NCBI GenBank assembly: GCA_040752395.1 | Contig: JBFMHD010000124.1 | Location: 1-8,120 of the forward strand | Direction: 5' to 3' | DNA length: 8,120 nucleotides | From: JBFMHD01 sp040752395 [NCBI: Candidatus Hydrogenedentota bacterium] | GTDB taxonomy: Bacteria > JBFMHD01 | Part shown: piece after piece, positions 1,068 through 8,120 of the stretch | Layout: each line of letters begins with the position of its first letter | Numbering within the stretch: the stretch's first letter is position 1 | Translations under genes and position numbers: made by a program | Notes under the pieces: model-generated | The model's database searches: none | What the model saw: only the letters and a program-made list of their open reading frames with translations | What the model was told of the DNA's origin: nothing

Positions 1068-3737
1068 ATGATAAGAAAAAAAACAATTTGCAATTTAATA
1101 TTCGCAATTTATAATATATTTTTCTTATCCTTATCTCTACACGCTAATACAACTCTACTTATTGATAACTTTGATGATGGGAGCGACCCGCTTGAAATAG
1201 AGGCAGGAAGCACATCGAACACTTGCTGGAACACAGCAACACCTGTCTATACTCAGGAATCAAGATTCGGTAATACCGGTTATTCTTATAAACTTGTGGT
1301 CTCTGGTAATGATGGCGGAGCCATTATCTCCTGGCCTACCCCTAAAAATTTCAGCCAATACAAGGCTCTGACATTCAGAGTCAAAGGTTCAGCTACAAAT
1401 GCCGACTGCCGGATAAATCTCGAAGACAATAATGGCGGTGGACCTGCAACTGATAAAAGACCATTCATCGGTAATTTCTTGCAATACGGCGTCCAGACCT
1501 ACTGGCAGAAAGTAACTATACCTGTTTGCTCACTCTGTTATGACGAAGATAGTACCGCAATTACAAAATTAGTTTTCCTCGAAGATAATCGTGACGGAAC
1601 AATCTATTTAGATGATTTCGCACTCGTATCCGCAGCCAGTCCTGTATGGATAGACAATTTTGATGATAGTAATACCACTTCAAACTTCAATACTGACTGG
1701 AGTGATTGGTGGGGTACCGATGGACAGCTTATCAGTACTCAGTTTGTTAGTTCACCCTGTGCTTATAATGTTTACATAACAGGTGCCAATGGCGCAAGAT
1801 ATGTAGAACTGCCATCTTATGACATCAGTGGTGGCGATAGTAGTCAAATGAACCTGAAATTCAATGTTAAGGGTAAAATAACCACTACTCCAGTTGAAGG
1901 CTGGCTCATTGATATACCAGGTGCTGATGAAAATAAAGTTGTAATAGTTGGTAATGGGAATAACCTTATTGATGGTGAAGATACAATTACTGACGATATC
2001 TGGAGAACAGCTATAATACCTTTAACACATAGTGAATGGCAGGATGCACCAAGTCCTGATAATTTTACAGATGTTCAAAGATTTGGTATATACATGGCAG
2101 CTTGGGGTGATTCTATTATTATCGACAATATTCGTATCCAGGATGATTCTTATCCCGCTACACCATACAATCTCAAAGACGATACCCAGACAATCTCAAA
2201 TAGCCACATCTTTGATTCCTGGAACATTTTAACCTGTAACGCAGCTAAAGAGTCTTCTGACTCAACACTTCATTATGTCTGGTTTGAATACTCGTATGAT
2301 AATACTACCTGGTATCGTATCAGTAATGAGTATGATTGTAGTGACGAGACATATAGTTTTATCTGGTATGATACAGGTATCAGCGAAACAATGGCTTTTT
2401 CTATTCGTGCGGTTGCTGAGGATGTCACTGGTAATACCTCAGCTTCCTCCACTTTCTCAAACTGTTATTACGATAGAACAAACCCCTCTATGATTAGTGC
2501 GTTGATAACAAGTGCTACAACTATTTTAGTGTATTTGAATGAAGATATATCTGCTTCGACCCTCTCATCTTCTCAATTCAAAGTTAATGGGATATCGATA
2601 TCATCGGTTTCTGAGATACAACCAGGTGTTTTACAATTAACTTTATCAACCCCTATCTCGTTATCAGAAACCGCTTCCATCTATCATACCGGTGGTCTAT
2701 CAGACCTCGCTTCCAATGTCTCAACAGAGGATACTATAGCTTCATCAGTTGTATCAACTTTATCGCTTGCAATCATCGCTAACCAGACAACAGTATATAT
2801 TTATTTTAATCTACCTGTTGATTCTAATTCTCTTGATTCTTCTGATTTTAAGATTAATAATGATACTGTTACTTCTGCGGTATGGATTGATTCATACACG
2901 GTAAGATTAACATATACAGGTCTTAATTTTGGTGAGAGTGCGCAAGTATCAATAGTTTCAACCATTCTTGATTCAGATGGTGATACTATACCTCAAACAA
3001 GTGTAACCGGTTCCTGGACAATAATACCTGCAAGCGGTGGTACTATCAGATGTTATGCTGACTCAGCTACGTATGTTACTTTTCCAGCCGGCGCTGCAAG
3101 TGAACCTTTAGTAATAATAATCGCTGTTGATACCTCATTCTCAAATATTCTCTCTTATGATTTTAAAGCATATAAGTATTCTAATGGTTCTGAAGTCAAA
3201 AATTTTTTTAGCCCGGTTACTATTGTGATCCACTATTATGACCATAACACGGACGGCTTTGTAGATGTTGTTGGTAACGTACCACTAACCGAAGCTGCTT
3301 CAAAACTCGGAATGTATTATTACGATAATGGACAATGGATATTTGTATCAAATAATGTTAATACTCAAACTCAGAGTATTACGGGTACTGTAAATCATTT
3401 TACACTTTTTGCGATACAGGAATTAACCGGTATTACAGGTCAATTCAGATTCTTAACCGGCATTATAAACCCAGAACCAAATCCATTCACACCAAATGGC
3501 GATGGGATCAATGACCGAGCACGATGGCATTTTGAAAATATTAGTAGCGGTGTTGTAACCTTGAAAATATTTAATCTACGTGGACAATTAGTGGACGAGT
3601 TGACTTCAACAGGTGCTACTGAGATCGAATGGGATGGTAAAAATCGTTCAGGTAACCCTGCAAAATCCGGGGTCTATATCTATAGATTAGAGGGCCCAGG
3701 TCAAACACATACAGGAACCATAGTCCTGGCACGATGA
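1068..3737 (+). CDS. Secreted multidomain protein: CBM-like, Ig-like, ZU5-like and CHU_C/FlgD-like C-terminal domain
   Basis: An 889-residue exported protein. The ATG at 1068 is preceded by AAAAGG at 1051-1056 and gives a clean signal peptide (residues 1-26, cut after LHA). Two jelly-roll, CBM-like modules follow (about 27-188 and 192-358), each opening with (L/W)IDNFDD and ending in a [IL]DDF or IIDNI strand. Next come an FN3/Ig-like segment with several cysteines (about 362-468), two Big_5/SwmB-like Ig domains (about 472-560 and 565-652) and a ZU5-like module (about 655-783). The last has TFPAGA near its start, a DHNTDGFVD loop of DxNxDGxxD calcium-binding type at 725-733, and VNHFTLFAI at its end. 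The C-terminal domain (about 798-889) has NPFTPNGDGIND, EWDGKNRSG and KSGVYIY, typical of FlgD_ig/CHU_C domains that act in export or surface attachment in other bacteria. It ends in a basic residue. No enzyme active site is recognised, so a surface adhesin or glycan-binding scaffold is inferred. The stop codon lies inside a 24-nt repeat. Confidence 0.88.
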   Translation: MIRKKTICNLIFAIYNIFFLSLSLHANTTLLIDNFDDGSDPLEIEAGSTSNTCWNTATPVYTQESRFGNTGYSYKLVVSGNDGGAIISWPTPKNFSQYKALTFRVKGSATNADCRINLEDNNGGGPATDKRPFIGNFLQYGVQTYWQKVTIPVCSLCYDEDSTAITKLVFLEDNRDGTIYLDDFALVSAASPVWIDNFDDSNTTSNFNTDWSDWWGTDGQLISTQFVSSPCAYNVYITGANGARYVELPSYDISGGDSSQMNLKFNVKGKITTTPVEGWLIDIPGADENKVVIVGNGNNLIDGEDTITDDIWRTAIIPLTHSEWQDAPSPDNFTDVQRFGIYMAAWGDSIIIDNIRIQDDSYPATPYNLKDDTQTISNSHIFDSWNILTCNAAKESSDSTLHYVWFEYSYDNTTWYRISNEYDCSDETYSFIWYDTGISETMAFSIRAVAEDVTGNTSASSTFSNCYYDRTNPSMISALITSATTILVYLNEDISASTLSSSQFKVNGISISSVSEIQPGVLQLTLSTPISLSETASIYHTGGLSDLASNVSTEDTIASSVVSTLSLAIIANQTTVYIYFNLPVDSNSLDSSDFKINNDTVTSAVWIDSYTVRLTYTGLNFGESAQVSIVSTILDSDGDTIPQTSVTGSWTIIPASGGTIRCYADSATYVTFPAGAASEPLVIIIAVDTSFSNILSYDFKAYKYSNGSEVKNFFSPVTIVIHYYDHNTDGFVDVVGNVPLTEAASKLGMYYYDNGQWIFVSNNVNTQTQSITGTVNHFTLFAIQELTGITGQFRFLTGIINPEPNPFTPNGDGINDRARWHFENISSGVVTLKIFNLRGQLVDELTSTGATEIEWDGKNRSGNPAKSGVYIYRLEGPGQTHTGTIVLAR

Positions 3738-3756
3738 GGCAGTGCCTCAAGCCATT
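3733..3756. repeat. 24-nt palindromic direct repeat, copy 1, spanning the stop codon
   Basis: Identical over 24 nt to bases 3837-3860. It contains the interrupted palindrome TGAGGCAGTGCCTCA (7-bp arms around a single G), followed by AGCCATT. The TGA stop of the upstream gene (3735-3737) is formed by the first bases of the palindrome. There is no T-tract after the palindrome, so it does not look like an intrinsic terminator. It resembles a REP-like element. Confidence 0.8.
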
Positions 3757-3836: not shown

Positions 3837-3860
3837 GATGAGGCAGTGCCTCAAGCCATT
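3837..3860. repeat. 24-nt palindromic direct repeat, copy 2
   Basis: The second exact copy, in the same orientation and 104 nt downstream of the first. The 80 bases between the copies (3757-3836) hold no ORF or structure that I can support. With only two copies and a long spacer it is not a CRISPR array. Confidence 0.8.
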
Positions 3861-3872
3861 ACAACGTTCTAC

Positions 3873-3910
3873 GAATGTTGAATTGTAAATTGAAGATTGG
3901 AAATTGCAGA
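3873..3910. repeat. Copy 2 of the 19-nt spacer element running into a TTGNARA heptamer array
   Basis: Bases 3873-3891 match 978-996 in 18 of 19 positions. Bases 3883-3910 are four consecutive heptamers with exact period 7: TTGTAAA, TTGAAGA, TTGGAAA and TTGCAGA (consensus TTGNARA). It lies in the non-coding spacer ahead of the barrel gene at 3970. Confidence 0.7.
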
Positions 3911-3969: not shown

Positions 3970-4884
3970 ATGAAAAAATTAGCCGCTATAACTATCTTAA
4001 TTTTAATCTCTAAATCCGTGATTCATTCGTTTGATGCTTTTACTCTTTCACCTCGCATTATAGGTGTTGGCAGCTCGATGGTTGCTATCTCATCGGATGA
4101 AGGGTCATTATTTAATGGTGTTGCCGGGGCCTCTCATAGAAAACACTGGAGTTTTACTGCATCTTATGCTATGCCTTATATCAATCTTGATGATGATGAT
4201 ATCAGACAGGGTTATCTTGGCATCGTAGGCCCTGTACGTAATGGCTCATTGAGTTTTGCCTGGGGTAATTTAAGCACTAATATTTACAGCGAAGATGCTA
4301 TTCTGATTGGCTATGCGAAAAATATCGCAAAGTATTTTGATTTTCTTGATAAAGCCTTTGCTGGTATCAGTCTGAAATATTTACGTAAAGACTATCAAGC
4401 TAACAGATATACATTAATCGACCCTGTTTTTCAGCAGGGGAACGATATCGACGCTTTTACTTTTGATATCTCTTATCAGCAGGAGATAAAAAATAAATTG
4501 CGTGTAGGGTTCTCTTTTGAGAACCTTACTAAACCTGATTTGGGTTTGAAAGCAAAAGATGAGGTTGAACGTGTTTTCCGTATCGGGATAGCGTTTGTGA
4601 AACCCAAAGATAACCATTATAAATGTGTTGAATTATCAGGCGAACTCAATGGTGACGATTTTTTTGGTCATTTCGGCGCTGAATATCCTGTCTTTAACGG
4701 GTTACTTATTCTACGAAGCGGTTATGAGTTCGGGTCTGAAAGATTATCTAATTTATCATTCGGGTTTGGAATCTCAACTTTTAAATCTAAATTTACGCTG
4801 GATTATGCATTTAGAATATCATTAAAAGGTGCGGATGATGATATGAACGGCTCGCATTATGCAGGTATTTCATATGGCTATTAA
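3970..4884 (+). CDS. PorV/PorQ-like (UPF0164-type) outer-membrane beta-barrel protein
   Basis: A 304-residue protein from the ATG at 3970. This start gives a normal signal peptide beginning MKKLAAITILILI and has purine-rich GAGAGAG shortly upstream; a TTG at 3964 would add only two residues. The segment IIGVGSSMVAISSDEGSLFNG (about 30-50) followed by VAGAS is a degenerate form of the family motif GAR..GMG.A..A..DD...Y.NPAGL. The rest is alternating amphipathic strands, with GISLKY, GFSFENL and SFGFGIS among them, and the protein ends in Tyr (GISYGY), as expected for an outer-membrane barrel signal. Acidic stretches (LDDDD about 73-77, and ADDD near the C-terminus) probably lie in loops. In Bacteroidota, PorV is the type IX secretion shuttle that binds cargo C-terminal domains. 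Here the gene sits between two genes carrying such domains and overlaps the second by 11 bases. Family membership is likely; the secretion role is inferred. Confidence 0.75.
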   Translation: MKKLAAITILILISKSVIHSFDAFTLSPRIIGVGSSMVAISSDEGSLFNGVAGASHRKHWSFTASYAMPYINLDDDDIRQGYLGIVGPVRNGSLSFAWGNLSTNIYSEDAILIGYAKNIAKYFDFLDKAFAGISLKYLRKDYQANRYTLIDPVFQQGNDIDAFTFDISYQQEIKNKLRVGFSFENLTKPDLGLKAKDEVERVFRIGIAFVKPKDNHYKCVELSGELNGDDFFGHFGAEYPVFNGLLILRSGYEFGSERLSNLSFGFGISTFKSKFTLDYAFRISLKGADDDMNGSHYAGISYGY

Positions 4885-6835
4885 TTCTTCCTTTGTCTAT
4901 TGCTTCTTGATTCGGCCGACTCCAAGAGTCGCCACTACGCAGTTTTCCGTTATCTTGCTTCTTTCGTTATCTTTCTTTGCCGTTATCTTGCCTCTATCTA
5001 CATCTACTGCCTACGCTTTTCTCATCGATGATATGGAAAATTTTAGTGCGTATTCAGTTAGCGGTGATAATGGAACAAGTTATTCTGTTGATAGGGTTGA
5101 TATGGATGGCAATCCTGCCATCATGCATACTTTTACTTTTACAACCGGTTCCTGGAGCCAGATTGAACGTAGTTTTACAAGCCTTGATTTAACACGTGGT
5201 GACTCTATACGATTTAAATATCGTGGTGGCGGTACAAACAATAATTTAGAGATTAAACTTGTTGATGGCGATACCGAGACCTTTGGGTACACTTTGAATA
5301 GTGTAACTGCAAGCCCGACCTGGCAGACCGCAACCGTAAAATTCGAAGGACCTTCACCTGATTTTTCATACTGGTGGGGCGGTGATGCTACTACTGATAA
5401 AACACTTGATACTGATACTATAAAAAAGATTGAGTTTGCTATTAGTGGTAACGGCTCGGGTTATATAATTATCGATGACCTTGAATTATACCAGACAAAG
5501 ACATTCACTGATTCAACCCTTGATGATTTCAATGACAGCAATAACACCAATAATTTCGGTGGTACAAACGGCGTATATGTTGAGGATGCAACTGTCTCTT
5601 GCACGTTATCTTATTATGAGACATCGCCTTATGAAGGAGCAAGATGCGCTAAAATCGAATATAGTAGAGGCTCTAAATACTGTGGCGCTTATTTCCCGCT
5701 TAATTCTACTGACCTGCATCTTGCTACTCATCTCCAATTTTATATTAAAAGTGAATATGAGGGTGAATCTTTAAAAATCGAGCTCGGTAGCGCAAATAAA
5801 AATCATAAGATTACCTATTATAATGTCCCAACATCATGGACAAAGGTTTGTATCGTACTTGAAAACTACAGAGGTGGCTCAAGCGAGATACCTGATAGCG
5901 GATGGTATGCTATGACCGGTAATTTCGCTATCGGGTTTGAAGAAGGTATCAGTAGAACAAGTGGCACTGTGTATATAGATGATGTAAAATTTATACGTAA
6001 CCCACCTGCACCAGGACCAGTATTTACAATCGATGATTTTGAGGGACCATATCTTGTCGCTTATTCGACCGCAGCTGATAATAACGCAACTATTACTAAA
6101 TCTCAGGTGAGCGGATATTCAGGCTATGGCCTCAGACTTGATTATTCTATGAATAATGGTGCCTGGGTTGTTGCATATAGAGAAATGTATGCTGATTTTA
6201 ACAGAGGTACAGGACTACGGTTCAGGCTATATGGTGGTTCTGCCTCAAAAGACCTTGAGGTTAAAATTGCGGATAAAGATAACACTGTATTTTATAAAAA
6301 GTTTTTAAGTAAAACCGGGTATGCTTACTGGCAAACTGTTGATCTCCTATTTACAGAATTAAGCTTATTCTCAAAAGGTGATGATGACGACCTCTCGCTT
6401 TCACTGGTATCTAAAATTTATTTTGCTGTTTCAGGCTCAGGCTCTGCAAACGGTTCAATAATCATCGATGATTTAGAAGTATTAAATCTCGGGGCACCAG
6501 GCGAAGTGGTAAATCGTGGCATTATTCAATCTGTTTTAGTTGAAAATAACCCATTCTCGCCAAATGATGACGGTGTACAGGATTATGTACGATTTAACTA
6601 TAATCTCCTTGAACCTGCTAATGTTAAATTTGAAATAGTTGATTCTTCTGGTGACAGAATAATAGATTTATCGCCTTCAGGAATACAACAAGCCGGGACT
6701 AACTCAATTATCTGGAACGGCAAAACAGCTTCAAACAAGCGAGTAAGAAACGGTCTCTATTTATTTCATATCCGTGCAAATGGCACAAATGGCGGATCAG
6801 GAAATTATACGAATATTGTAGCAGTGGTGAGATAA
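4874..6835 (+). CDS. Secreted protein with three CBM-like modules and a CHU_C/FlgD-like C-terminal domain
   Basis: I prefer the ATG at 4874 (653 residues) to the one at 4859, because AGGT at 4863-4866 sits 7 bases upstream of it. It overlaps the previous gene by 11 bases, which suggests translational coupling. The leader is long: an n-region with a palindrome-encoded RPTPRVATT, then a hydrophobic core (VILLLSLSFFAVILPL), with likely cleavage after AYA at residue 48. Three jelly-roll modules follow (about 49-206, 215-375 and 384-538). They end in IIIDDLELY, VYIDDVKFI and IIIDDLEVL. Module 1 has LEIKLVDGD, TFGY and YWWGGD, matching the modules of the first gene; module 3 has the weaker LEVKIADKD. 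The C-terminal domain (about 550-653) has NPFSPNDDGVQD, IIWNGK and NGLYLFHIRA and is related to the one in the gene at 1068. No catalytic motif is seen. A surface-displayed polysaccharide-binding protein is inferred, possibly paired with a neighbouring barrel. Confidence 0.87.
   Translation: MAINSSFVYCFLIRPTPRVATTQFSVILLLSLSFFAVILPLSTSTAYAFLIDDMENFSAYSVSGDNGTSYSVDRVDMDGNPAIMHTFTFTTGSWSQIERSFTSLDLTRGDSIRFKYRGGGTNNNLEIKLVDGDTETFGYTLNSVTASPTWQTATVKFEGPSPDFSYWWGGDATTDKTLDTDTIKKIEFAISGNGSGYIIIDDLELYQTKTFTDSTLDDFNDSNNTNNFGGTNGVYVEDATVSCTLSYYETSPYEGARCAKIEYSRGSKYCGAYFPLNSTDLHLATHLQFYIKSEYEGESLKIELGSANKNHKITYYNVPTSWTKVCIVLENYRGGSSEIPDSGWYAMTGNFAIGFEEGISRTSGTVYIDDVKFIRNPPAPGPVFTIDDFEGPYLVAYSTAADNNATITKSQVSGYSGYGLRLDYSMNNGAWVVAYREMYADFNRGTGLRFRLYGGSASKDLEVKIADKDNTVFYKKFLSKTGYAYWQTVDLLFTELSLFSKGDDDDLSLSLVSKIYFAVSGSGSANGSIIIDDLEVLNLGAPGEVVNRGIIQSVLVENNPFSPNDDGVQDYVRFNYNLLEPANVKFEIVDSSGDRIIDLSPSGIQQAGTNSIIWNGKTASNKRVRNGLYLFHIRANGTNGGSGNYTNIVAVVR
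4917..4931. repeat. Short perfect palindrome inside the signal-peptide coding region
   Basis: CGACTC-CAA-GAGTCG has a 6-bp perfect stem and a 3-nt loop. It is read in frame as part of RPTPRVA in the n-region of the exported protein starting at 4874. It looks like a small REP-type palindrome taken into the coding sequence; the GAGTC core recalls the AGTC octamers at 6876-6899. Confidence 0.55.
4947..4991. repeat. Pyrimidine-rich CGTTATCTT repeat encoding the signal-peptide core, copy A
   Basis: Three imperfect units of about 16 nt, each containing CGTTATCTT (starting at 4948, 4965 and 4981), encode the hydrophobic core of the signal peptide. Bases 4955-4978 are identical over 24 nt to 7994-8017 in the last gene of the window. 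After one extra G here, a further 12 nt (CCGTTATCTTGC) also match. The 24-nt block is read TTG CTT CTT TCG here but in another frame in the other gene. Confidence 0.8.
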
Positions 6836-6840
6836 TATTA

Positions 6841-6868
6841 GTGGTTAGTGGTTAGGAGTTAGGGGTTA
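6841..6868. repeat. Four GKRGTTA heptamers in the spacer
   Basis: GTGGTTA occurs twice, then GGAGTTA and GGGGTTA, with exact period 7. The array starts five bases after the stop of the upstream gene and lies in the 79-base spacer before the second barrel gene. No promoter or terminator is evident in this spacer. Confidence 0.75.
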
Positions 6869-6875
6869 TAAGATA

Positions 6876-6902
6876 AGTCAAAGAGTCAAAGAGTCGAGGG
6901 TC
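6876..6902. repeat. Three AGTCRARG octamers, complementary to a repeat inside the next gene
   Basis: Three octamers (AGTCAAAG twice, then AGTCGAGG) with period 8 are followed by GTC. AGTCGAGGGTC (6892-6902) is the exact reverse complement of GACCCTCGACT at 7004-7014, inside the following gene. The GAGG in it is the only Shine-Dalgarno-like purine run before the ATG at 6915, though about 15 bases away and so poorly placed. Confidence 0.7.
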
Positions 6903-6914
6903 AATGAGTACATT

Positions 6915-7838
6915 ATGAGATTAGGCAGGATAATATTATTTACTATTTTCATATTTTTTATTTTCTCAGTCTCACGATCCACAACCCCTGACGCCAGACC
7001 CTCGACCCTCGACTTTCTACTCTCCACTCAATTACATGCTTCTGCATTTGACCGACTCGGTGCCGGAGTCCGTGCCAAAGGGATGGGGGATGCATTTACC
7101 GCTATTTCGGATGATGCTTCTTCGGTATATTGGAACCAGGCTGGTATCTCACAAATAACAAAAAAGAATATTATCTTAAATTATAGGGATTTATACAGTC
7201 TCGGTTTGATAAATTATGGTGAGATCTTTTTTATTCAGCCTGGCATCTGGAGAGGTGGGCTCGGGTTTGGGGTGCGACATTTCGGTACCTCCGCAAAAGT
7301 AGATTTTATCGATTATAATGAAAATACTTTTACCATAGCTTATGGCTGCGAAATAAAGAAAAATTTAAGACTCGGGGCAGCGCTTAAGTATTATGATGTA
7401 GATTATGATATTGATGCTAATGGCTTCGGGATTGATGTAAGTGCTATGTATAGCTTTGGGGATTATTTCACTTTAGGAGTTTTAATCCAGGATTGTTTAG
7501 AACCTGAGATCGAATGGGAAACCAGAGCTGTTGATAGATTGCCATTAAATATCCGCACCGGGCTTGCTTTTAAATGGGAAGAATTTTTAAATGTTGATAT
7601 CGATGTTGATAAAATAGCTGATGACGAGGATGACGAAGAACTGCATATAGGACTTGAGTACTGGCTGCCCCAAAAAATTATCGGCATCCGCGTTGGTGGC
7701 TACCAGCAGCGATCAAGTAAATGGGTCGGTACTATGGGGTTCGGGCTTCGTTACGACGTTTTCCAACTCGATTATTCCTATGAACATCATTATCTATTAA
7801 GCAGTACTCATTTTTTCTCTGTAGGCCTGGAGTTTTAG
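6915..7838 (+). CDS. PorV/PorQ family (UPF0164-type) outer-membrane beta-barrel protein
   Basis: A 307-residue protein from the ATG at 6915. The signal-peptide core (about residues 6-19, IILFTIFIFFIFSV) is followed by an unusual segment, TTPDARPSTLDFLLST (about 23-38), encoded by a tandem repeat, and then HASAF. The mature protein starts with the family hallmark: RLGAGVRAKGMGDA (47-60), then FTAISDDASSVYWNQAG (61-77), close to the PorV/PorQ motif with NQAG in place of the usual NPAG. Amphipathic strands continue to the end, with GLEYWL and IGIRVGGY (about 246-263) typical of the family and a C-terminal Phe (SVGLEF) as barrel-assembly signal. A strongly acidic stretch at about 227-242 (VDIDVDKIADDEDDEE) is probably a loop. 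It is much closer to the family consensus than the barrel at 3970. By analogy with PorV it may help export or anchor the C-terminal-domain protein encoded just upstream; that is inference. Confidence 0.83.
   Translation: MRLGRIILFTIFIFFIFSVSRSTTPDARPSTLDFLLSTQLHASAFDRLGAGVRAKGMGDAFTAISDDASSVYWNQAGISQITKKNIILNYRDLYSLGLINYGEIFFIQPGIWRGGLGFGVRHFGTSAKVDFIDYNENTFTIAYGCEIKKNLRLGAALKYYDVDYDIDANGFGIDVSAMYSFGDYFTLGVLIQDCLEPEIEWETRAVDRLPLNIRTGLAFKWEEFLNVDIDVDKIADDEDDEELHIGLEYWLPQKIIGIRVGGYQQRSSKWVGTMGFGLRYDVFQLDYSYEHHYLLSSTHFFSVGLEF
6981..7033. repeat. Heptamer repeat inside the leader-coding region of the second barrel gene
   Basis: On the - strand this reads as successive 7-nt units built on GT...GG: GTCGAGG twice, then GTCTGGC, GTCAGGG and GTTGTGG, preceded by the related GAGTGGA and GAGTAGA. 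It encodes about residues 23-40, between the hydrophobic core and the ASAF site. Neighbouring codons look like ordinary signal-peptide sequence, so the array looks like spacer repeat incorporated in frame. Confidence 0.65.
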
Positions 7839-7852
7839 AACAGGAGATAGTA

Positions 7853-7880
7853 GATTGAAAGATTCAAAGATTCAAAGATT
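7853..7880. repeat. GATTSAAA octamer array at the start of the last gene
   Basis: GATTGAAA, then GATTCAAA twice, then a partial GATT, with exact period 8. The proposed TTG start codon (7855-7857) lies within the first unit, so the repeat would encode the first residues (MKDSKIQRL). Confidence 0.75.
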
Positions 7881-8120
7881 ATTTCGGCATTCTGAATTTT
7901 TTAAAGGATGTTGGCTTCAGGCTACAGACTACAGGCTTCAGCCGGCTGTAGCCCGTAGCCCGAAGTCTGAAGCCTGTCCTGATACTTCTCACTTTGCTTC
8001 TTTCGTTATCTTTCTTTCCGTTATCTTGCTTCTTGCCTCTGTCCATGCCGAACCACTAATAATTGATAATTTCAATCAAGGTGGCCCACCAAATGCTCTC
8101 GGCACAGGGTATTTTGATTT
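7855..8120 (+). CDS. Exported protein with CBM-like N-terminus, 3' end outside window
   Basis: The frame has no stop from 7855 to the window end (88 codons). I chose TTG at 7855 because AGGAG (7842-7846) lies 8 bases upstream and no ATG or GTG occurs in this frame before the signal-peptide core; the ATG at 7908 is in another frame and stops after 16 codons. The predicted protein has an unusually long, repeat-encoded n-region (about 46 residues), then a hydrophobic core ASFVIFLSVILLLAS and likely cleavage after VHA at about residue 65. The mature part starts EPLIIDNFNQGG, very like the first strand of the jelly-roll modules in the genes at 1068 and 4874. It is therefore probably another multidomain binding protein of this cluster, starting 16 bases after the second barrel gene, likely in the same operon. 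Frame and signal core are well supported; the exact start is less sure. Confidence 0.65.
   Translation, partial: MKDSKIQRLFRHSEFFKGCWLQATDYRLQPAVARSPKSEACPDTSHFASFVIFLSVILLLASVHAEPLIIDNFNQGGPPNALGTGYFD
7914..7973. repeat. Mirror-image heptamer array, four plus four units around CCGG
   Basis: Four heptamers of consensus RCTWCRG (7914-7941), a CCGG centre (7942-7945) and four heptamers of the reverse-complement consensus (7946-7973) make a symmetrical 60-nt element. Folded on itself it gives about 22 pairs out of 28. An alternative register gives an 11-bp perfect stem, 7931-7941 with 7967-7977. The element is a multiple of three long and lies in the open frame of the last gene, encoding part of its n-region. 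Confidence 0.8.
7994..8029. repeat. Pyrimidine-rich signal-peptide repeat, copy B
   Basis: Bases 7994-8017 are identical to 4955-4978. CCGTTATCTTGC (8018-8029) then matches 4980-4991, with one base fewer between the blocks. Here the first block is read in the frame giving ASFVIFL and the second in the same frame as copy A (VIL). It forms the hydrophobic core of the last gene's signal peptide. Confidence 0.8.

Follow-up and report, generated by a model that had tools for sequence, protein, structure and literature searches.

The 8,120 nt of contig JBFMHD010000124.1 from a Candidatus Hydrogenedentota bacterium (the window, by which we mean this whole stretch) carry two genes, P4 and P6, whose probable signal peptides are built on the same piece of repeated DNA. 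The cores of both signal peptides are two stretches of one pyrimidine-rich tandem repeat with a unit of 32 nt. The window has a G+C content of 38% and 16 open reading frames (ORFs) of at least 60 amino acids were listed, of which we took six on the + strand as the genes P1–P6, with P1 being open at its 5′ end and P6 being cut by the window end. The coordinates of the features discussed are collected in Table 1.

A preliminary description of this DNA had reported that an identical 24-nt block, TTGCTTCTTTCGTTATCTTTCTTT, is present in both leaders and is read as LLLSLSFF in P4 and as ASFVIFL in P6, and both the identity and the two readings agree with the sequence and its ORF frames. Allowing up to three mismatches the block has two matches in the window, both of them exact, and none in 200 shuffles. 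The description was also right that a single-base difference behind the block brings the following 12 shared bases back into one frame, as P4 carries an extra G at 4979 after which the bases 4980–4991 equal 8018–8029, and the CGTTATCTT units at 4981 in P4 and at 8019 in P6 stand in identical codon phase. It had overlooked that the leaders share another exact block, 20 nt long, TTTCCGTTATCTTGCTTCTT, which we call block A (the 24-mer being block B) and which gives SVILLL in the identical frame in both genes. The order of the two blocks is opposite, with A followed by B in P4 (9-nt overlap) and B followed by A in P6 (3-nt overlap).

Blocks A and B together define the 32-nt unit TTTCCGTTATCTTGCTTCTTTCGTTATCTTTC, read off P4 at 4944–4975. 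We aligned the leaders to head-to-tail copies of the unit, with 200 randomised arrays per leader as control. P4 reached a score of 93 (randomised mean 26.5, maximum 49) and P6 a score of 82 (mean 27.2, maximum 48); as the unit was taken from P4, the P4 score is high partly by construction and the fit of P6 is the independent part. The leaders of P2, P3 and P5 scored 23, 16 and 14 and thus stayed under their randomised maxima of 29, 24 and 33. Tandem Repeats Finder (TRF) detected an array at 4943–4991 in P4 (period 17, 3.0 copies, 79% matches, score 68) and one at 7998–8031 in P6 (period 15, 2.3 copies, 90% matches, score 54), with both periods being about half of the 32-nt unit, of which P4 contains approximately 1.7 and P6 approximately 1.3 copies. 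Because 32 cannot be divided by three, block B falls into differing frames around block A. The one-base indel of the preliminary description does return the downstream unit of P4 to frame, but it is not needed for the frame difference, which the period of the array explains.

The DNA identity goes far beyond what the encoded peptides demand. We used the longest shared word of the leader cores (4937–5023 in P4 and 7978–8049 in P6) as statistic, which is 24 nt for this pair and 6–8 nt for the remaining nine of the ten pairs among the five leaders. Synonymous recoding, in which the peptides were kept and the codons followed the window usage, averaged 7.5 with a maximum of 17, and dinucleotide shuffles of both cores averaged 7.7 with a maximum of 14; none of the 3000 replicates reached 24 in either case. 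Protein-level conservation as the source of the DNA identity, already doubted in the preliminary description, is rejected by the recoding, and chance by the shuffles. A local alignment of the two leaders scored 70 against a maximum of 28 in 300 shuffles. The DNA 3′ of the leaders showed no similarity over the 71 nt of P6 that are visible there (best local score 14, mean of 300 shuffles 14.8). The leader identity therefore does not have the look of a remnant of P4 and P6 having recently been duplicated as whole genes, and we discarded such a duplication as unsupported.

To take a frame as hydrophobic we required a best mean hydropathy over eight residues of at least 2.0. The coding frame of the P4 core (4940–4999) reaches 2.86 and its other frames 1.81 and 2.86; for the P6 core (7990–8040) the values are 3.38 in the coding frame and 2.40 and 1.14 in the others. 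Two hydrophobic frames are also found in leaders without the array, namely P2 (2.49, 1.20, 2.80) and P5 (3.34, 2.21, 1.86), and the P3 leader is hydrophobic in its coding frame only (3.34). Among 5000 random 60-mers with the composition of the P4 array 77% had at least two hydrophobic frames, compared with 4.5% of 5000 random 60-mers with 38% G+C and equal strands and 3% of 2000 54-nt pieces of mature coding DNA. The earlier suggestion that the repeat gives hydrophobic residues in more than one frame thus holds for pyrimidine-rich DNA as such and is not special to the repeat. A special multi-frame design of the repeat is rejected, as composition alone suffices, and multi-frame hydrophobicity is a property of T+C-rich DNA in general. 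The two leaders provide a clear natural case of one DNA block coding for a hydrophobic core in two frames and show the cause, as it is the base composition and not a particular sequence that bears the hydrophobicity.

Tandem arrays are also unevenly distributed over the window. With leader limits set by eye and 100 shuffles as control, seven strong arrays (TRF score of at least 40) were found in the 1130 nt made up by leaders and intergenic DNA (shuffle mean 0.05, maximum 1), and the 6990 nt of mature coding DNA had none (shuffle mean 0.22). The arrays at 3882, 6838 and 6876 are intergenic, those at 4943, 6937 and 7998 belong to leaders, and the one at 7852 spans the P6 start. With a TRF score of at least 30, leader and intergenic DNA has nine arrays against a shuffle mean of 0.32. 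As strong arrays are restricted to leaders and intergenic DNA, slippage together with leader-to-leader copying appears likeliest.

On balance we favour the explanation that a leader block was copied at the DNA level between P4 and P6 and reshaped by slippage on the shared 32-nt repeat, and we regard it as probable, with some reserve. A leader sequence or short repeat block would have been copied between the 5′ ends of the two genes, with gene conversion, duplication and template switching being candidates alike. Slippage would then have altered unit number and phase in each copy, and the non-triplet period would allow one block to be read in two frames. Both the copying event and the slippage are what we infer. 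The array may be tolerated since most frames of T+C-rich DNA yield L, F, S, V and I and the constraints on signal peptides are loose. A Sec signal peptide requires little beyond a hydrophobic stretch. The preliminary description had named duplication or gene conversion of the leader followed by an indel as its alternative; from this the leader copying is favoured, given the blocks of 24 and 20 nt and the 0 of 3000 replicates, and the frame difference does not call for the indel.

Several observations weigh against this explanation. The array is present in only two of the five leaders of the window, the role of the P4 and P6 leaders as signal peptides was judged by inspection, and the comparison behind the leaders is limited to 71 nt of P6. 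With a TRF score of at least 30, mature coding DNA also has four arrays (shuffle mean 1.28, maximum 4), and duplication thus favours leaders and intergenic DNA without being confined there. In addition, no relatives or additional copies were found in the collections searched with the patterns and queries described below.

The case is a real example of repeat DNA serving as a probable signal peptide, and related bacterial cases are already known. In the Neisseria opa genes, CTCTT pentamers are located in the region coding for the leader peptide, and slippage with phase switching is reported at about 1e-3 per cell per generation (PMC3960869). Translation of (CTCTT)n gives L, F and S in every frame. 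As in opa, which encodes outer-membrane proteins, a pyrimidine-rich non-triplet tandem repeat lies within leader-coding DNA in P4 and P6 (period 32; TRF periods 17 and 15). The opa array consists of uniform pentamers, whereas P4 and P6 have few imperfect copies of a longer unit (3.0 copies at 79% and 2.3 at 90%) and not the many near-identical units prone to slippage. Similarly, oipA of H. pylori has a pyrimidine repeat in its signal-peptide DNA, but there it is a CT dinucleotide tract with on/off switching (PMC10564699). In Yersinia, the RU-2 (YPAL) element contributes to the predicted YPO1552 signal peptide and the RU-1 unit has more than one open frame (RU-1 and RU-1f) (PMC2759123, PMC2229807), so that both the location of the repeat within signal-peptide DNA and the openness in several frames have a parallel in the 32-nt array. 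The RU elements differ from it in being 103–168 bp long, in resembling miniature inverted-repeat transposable elements (MITEs) and in having multiple genomic copies (PMC2759123, PMC2229807). Compared with RU and RPE elements, the 32-nt array has two copies within the window and lacks the inverted repeats and stem-loop of MITE-like elements, as neither the P4 nor the P6 array folds beyond its shuffles (z −0.56 and 0.36).

Heptamer repeats offer a more distant comparison. In Beggiatoaceae those inside ORFs are mostly located at protein ends (PMC4679880), and heptamer repeats are also known from cyanobacteria and xanthomonads. Others are described as kept between genes, and the G-rich heptamers of xanthomonads are under-represented in coding DNA (PMC4692102). 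The window resembles these genomes in having short tandem units near start codons, its other arrays being heptamers and octamers, but the 32-nt array itself is not heptameric. The titles and abstract openings covered by our literature search contained no report of two genes whose signal-peptide cores come from one repeat read in two frames, with PMC2759123 being the nearest. The addition to the known cases is one repeat common to two leaders, in permuted order and in two frames.

The Yersinia example (PMC2759123) also serves as precedent for a dispersed repeat family, in which the 32-nt array would be one among many mobile or spreading copies in the genome and genes would gain export signals wherever a copy lands at their 5′ end, in any frame. 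Other short arrays (heptamers, octamers and palindromes) at gene starts of the window that run into coding DNA would fit as well. Nevertheless we regard such a family as unlikely, as the window has two copies only, 3 kb apart, both of them in leaders and none intergenic, and as exact searches with a 22-mer core of the array in genome_contigs and a 21-mer core in viral_contigs gave no match, although these collections cover other genomes and say little about the window's own. If more genomic copies existed, signal peptides would be a place for a cheap conversion of repeats into coding DNA, which, if true, bears on the origin of new exported proteins. A still bolder generalisation, to which we give little credence, is that in this lineage short spreading repeats that are kept pyrimidine-rich on one strand might form a frame-indifferent stock of export signals for genes of secreted (type IX-like) proteins, with repeat capture providing or renewing their signal peptides. 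A phase-variation switch, in which slippage would alternately couple and uncouple the start codon and the frame of the mature protein in the manner of opa CTCTT and oipA CT, appears very improbable. A non-triplet repeat does sit in the leaders of surface-type proteins, and behind the P4 array one alternative frame stops within 20 codons and the other encodes unrelated sequence that ends at 5192. Yet P4 contains only about 1.7 and P6 about 1.3 copies of the 32-nt unit, equal to two to three imperfect sub-units, and known phase switches have longer uniform tracts. The mechanism as such is established for opa leaders (PMC3960869) and oipA (PMC10564699).

Two further alternatives concern the RNA and the assembly. 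SECReTE is reported as at least ten triplets with a pyrimidine at one position and as enriched in the secretome genes of B. subtilis (PMC6625729), and a similar pyrimidine-rich mRNA stretch selected for targeting or translation could be present here. The P4 and P6 leaders contain such stretches, and they hold the window's three longest runs with a pyrimidine at every third base (23 triplets in P4, 18 and 17 in P6); in 100 mononucleotide shuffles the longest run averaged 11.5 triplets and did not exceed 19. However, hydrophobic codons by themselves bring about the runs at codon position 2, the 16 runs of at least ten triplets in the window show that the motif is not specific, and the exact identity of the blocks would stay unexplained, so that we give this idea hardly any weight. 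A structured RNA element was rejected, as the arrays fold no better than shuffles and Rfam had no match at gathering scores. As for the assembly, a false extra base at 4979 would place both leaders in one frame, and indeed another frame of P4 reads ...ASFVIFL ahead of the extra base as P6 does, so that the core could be shared. In this frame the stop of the upstream gene is followed by neither ATG nor GTG, but just by a TTG that lacks a purine-rich site, whereas P4 as given starts at ATG 4874 with AGG ahead. Moreover block A is already in the same frame in both genes and the array accounts for the frames without any error, which makes an error very unlikely too.

Table 1: Position and basis of the features in the P4–P6 part of the window.
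Feature	Position	Strand	Basis
Gene P4, probable exported protein	4874..6835	+	ORF; start read as ATG 4874, ATG 4859 possible too
P4 probable signal peptide, MAINSSFVYCFLIRPTPRVATTQFSVILLLSLSFFAVILPLSTSTAYA	4874..5017	+	Translation; hydrophobic core and AYA end judged by eye
Array copy in P4, unit TTTCCGTTATCTTGCTTCTTTCGTTATCTTTC	4944..4998	+	One inserted base (4979), two mismatches
Block A in P4, 20 nt, SVILLL	4944..4963	+	Exact repeat, frame
Block B (24-mer) in P4, LLLSLSFF, reaching past block A on the 3′ side	4955..4978	+	Exact match, frame
GACCCTC heptamers, leader-proximal part of P5 (PorV family)	6997..7013	+	TRF period 7, 2.4 copies, 100%, score 34
Octamer array AGATTCAA on the P6 start and first codons	7852..7880	+	TRF period 8, 3.6 copies, score 51
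Gene P6, truncated at the window end	7855..8118	+	Open-ended ORF; TTG start with AGGAG ahead
P6 probable signal peptide	7855–8049	+	By inspection; EPLIIDNF... comes next
Heptamer-built palindrome, N-terminal coding part of P6	7913..7974	+	Arms of 35 nt, 83% complementary, overlapping
Array copy in P6, entered at another point of the unit	7994..8034	+	41/41 bases fit
Block B (24-mer) in P6, ASFVIFL, on the 5′ side of block A	7994..8017	+	Exact match, frame
Block A in P6, 20 nt, SVILLL, frame as in P4	8015..8034	+	Exact repeat, frame

Judging from the translations, the leaders of P4 and P6 probably function as signal peptides. The AGG stands 8 nt ahead of the ATG 4874 of P4. For P6 the likely start is TTG 7855, 8 nt behind AGGAG at 7842–7846, which would give a leader of 65 residues, and no other in-frame ATG, GTG or TTG was found between 7855 and the core, leaving this TTG as the sole upstream start. 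By inspection the leaders end with AYA in P4 and with VHA in P6 (V at −3, A at −1). A small hairpin, CGACTC CAA GAGTCG, is present at 4914–4933 within the part coding for the P4 n-region; the fold of 4905–4940 has −10.5 kcal/mol (z −2.22) and 9 of 200 shuffles are as good.

P1 and P4 passed the Pfam cut-offs for CBM_11 and CIA30, P2 and P4 passed that for FlgD_ig and P2 also that for CHU_C. In P4 the E-values are 1.6e-19 for CBM_11 and 1.9e-8 for the C-terminal FlgD_ig, both above the Pfam cut-off, and a CHU_C match of 21.2 bits lies under the cut-off of 27. From NCBIfam, P2 passed Por_Secre_tail (28.6 bits, cut-off 23) and P5 passed PorV_fam (113 bits, cut-off 90), for which P3 stays below with 56.4 bits; nothing above a cut-off was obtained for P4 and P6. 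P1–P6 may thus be clustered genes for exported surface proteins of a type IX-like kind, for which Sec leaders would be needed.

Searches for relatives used few and exact peptide patterns, so absent relatives are weak evidence. In viral_contigs one stretch matched a pattern of P4 and was not confirmed, 116 stretches matched a pattern of P5 with none confirmed, and P2 had no pattern match. An alignment of two CBM_11 unit rows gave 281 stretches in genome_contigs that matched one of two patterns, none of them confirmed. No relatives were found for P4 in plasmids or for 4859–8120 in phages.

The remaining repeats suggest a picture in which the DNA of the window would gather short duplications wherever the protein sequence is loosely held, leaders included. 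Units of 7 and 8 nt necessarily pass through changing frames. The palindrome in P6 is composed of the heptamers GGCTTCA GGCTACA GACTACA GGCTTCA ... GTAGCCC GTAGCCC GAAGTCT GAAGCC, its RNA fold (7905–7982) has −39 kcal/mol (z −4.29), and a 20-nt piece of it had no match in viral_contigs. Given the start at TTG 7855, it would be translated within a long n-region.

Ahead of P5, 6838–6895 contains the heptamers TTAGTGG/TTAGGAG/TTAGGGG and the octamers AGTCAAAG, and GAGGGTC at approximately 6896–6902 is the reverse complement of the GACCCTC units in the P5 leader. An exact 24-nt repeat with a palindromic core, GATGAGGCAGTGCCTCAAGCCATT, is found at 3733–3756 and 3837–3860. Its 21-nt core had no match in viral_contigs, and the first copy provides the stop codon of P2 (TGA 3735–3737).

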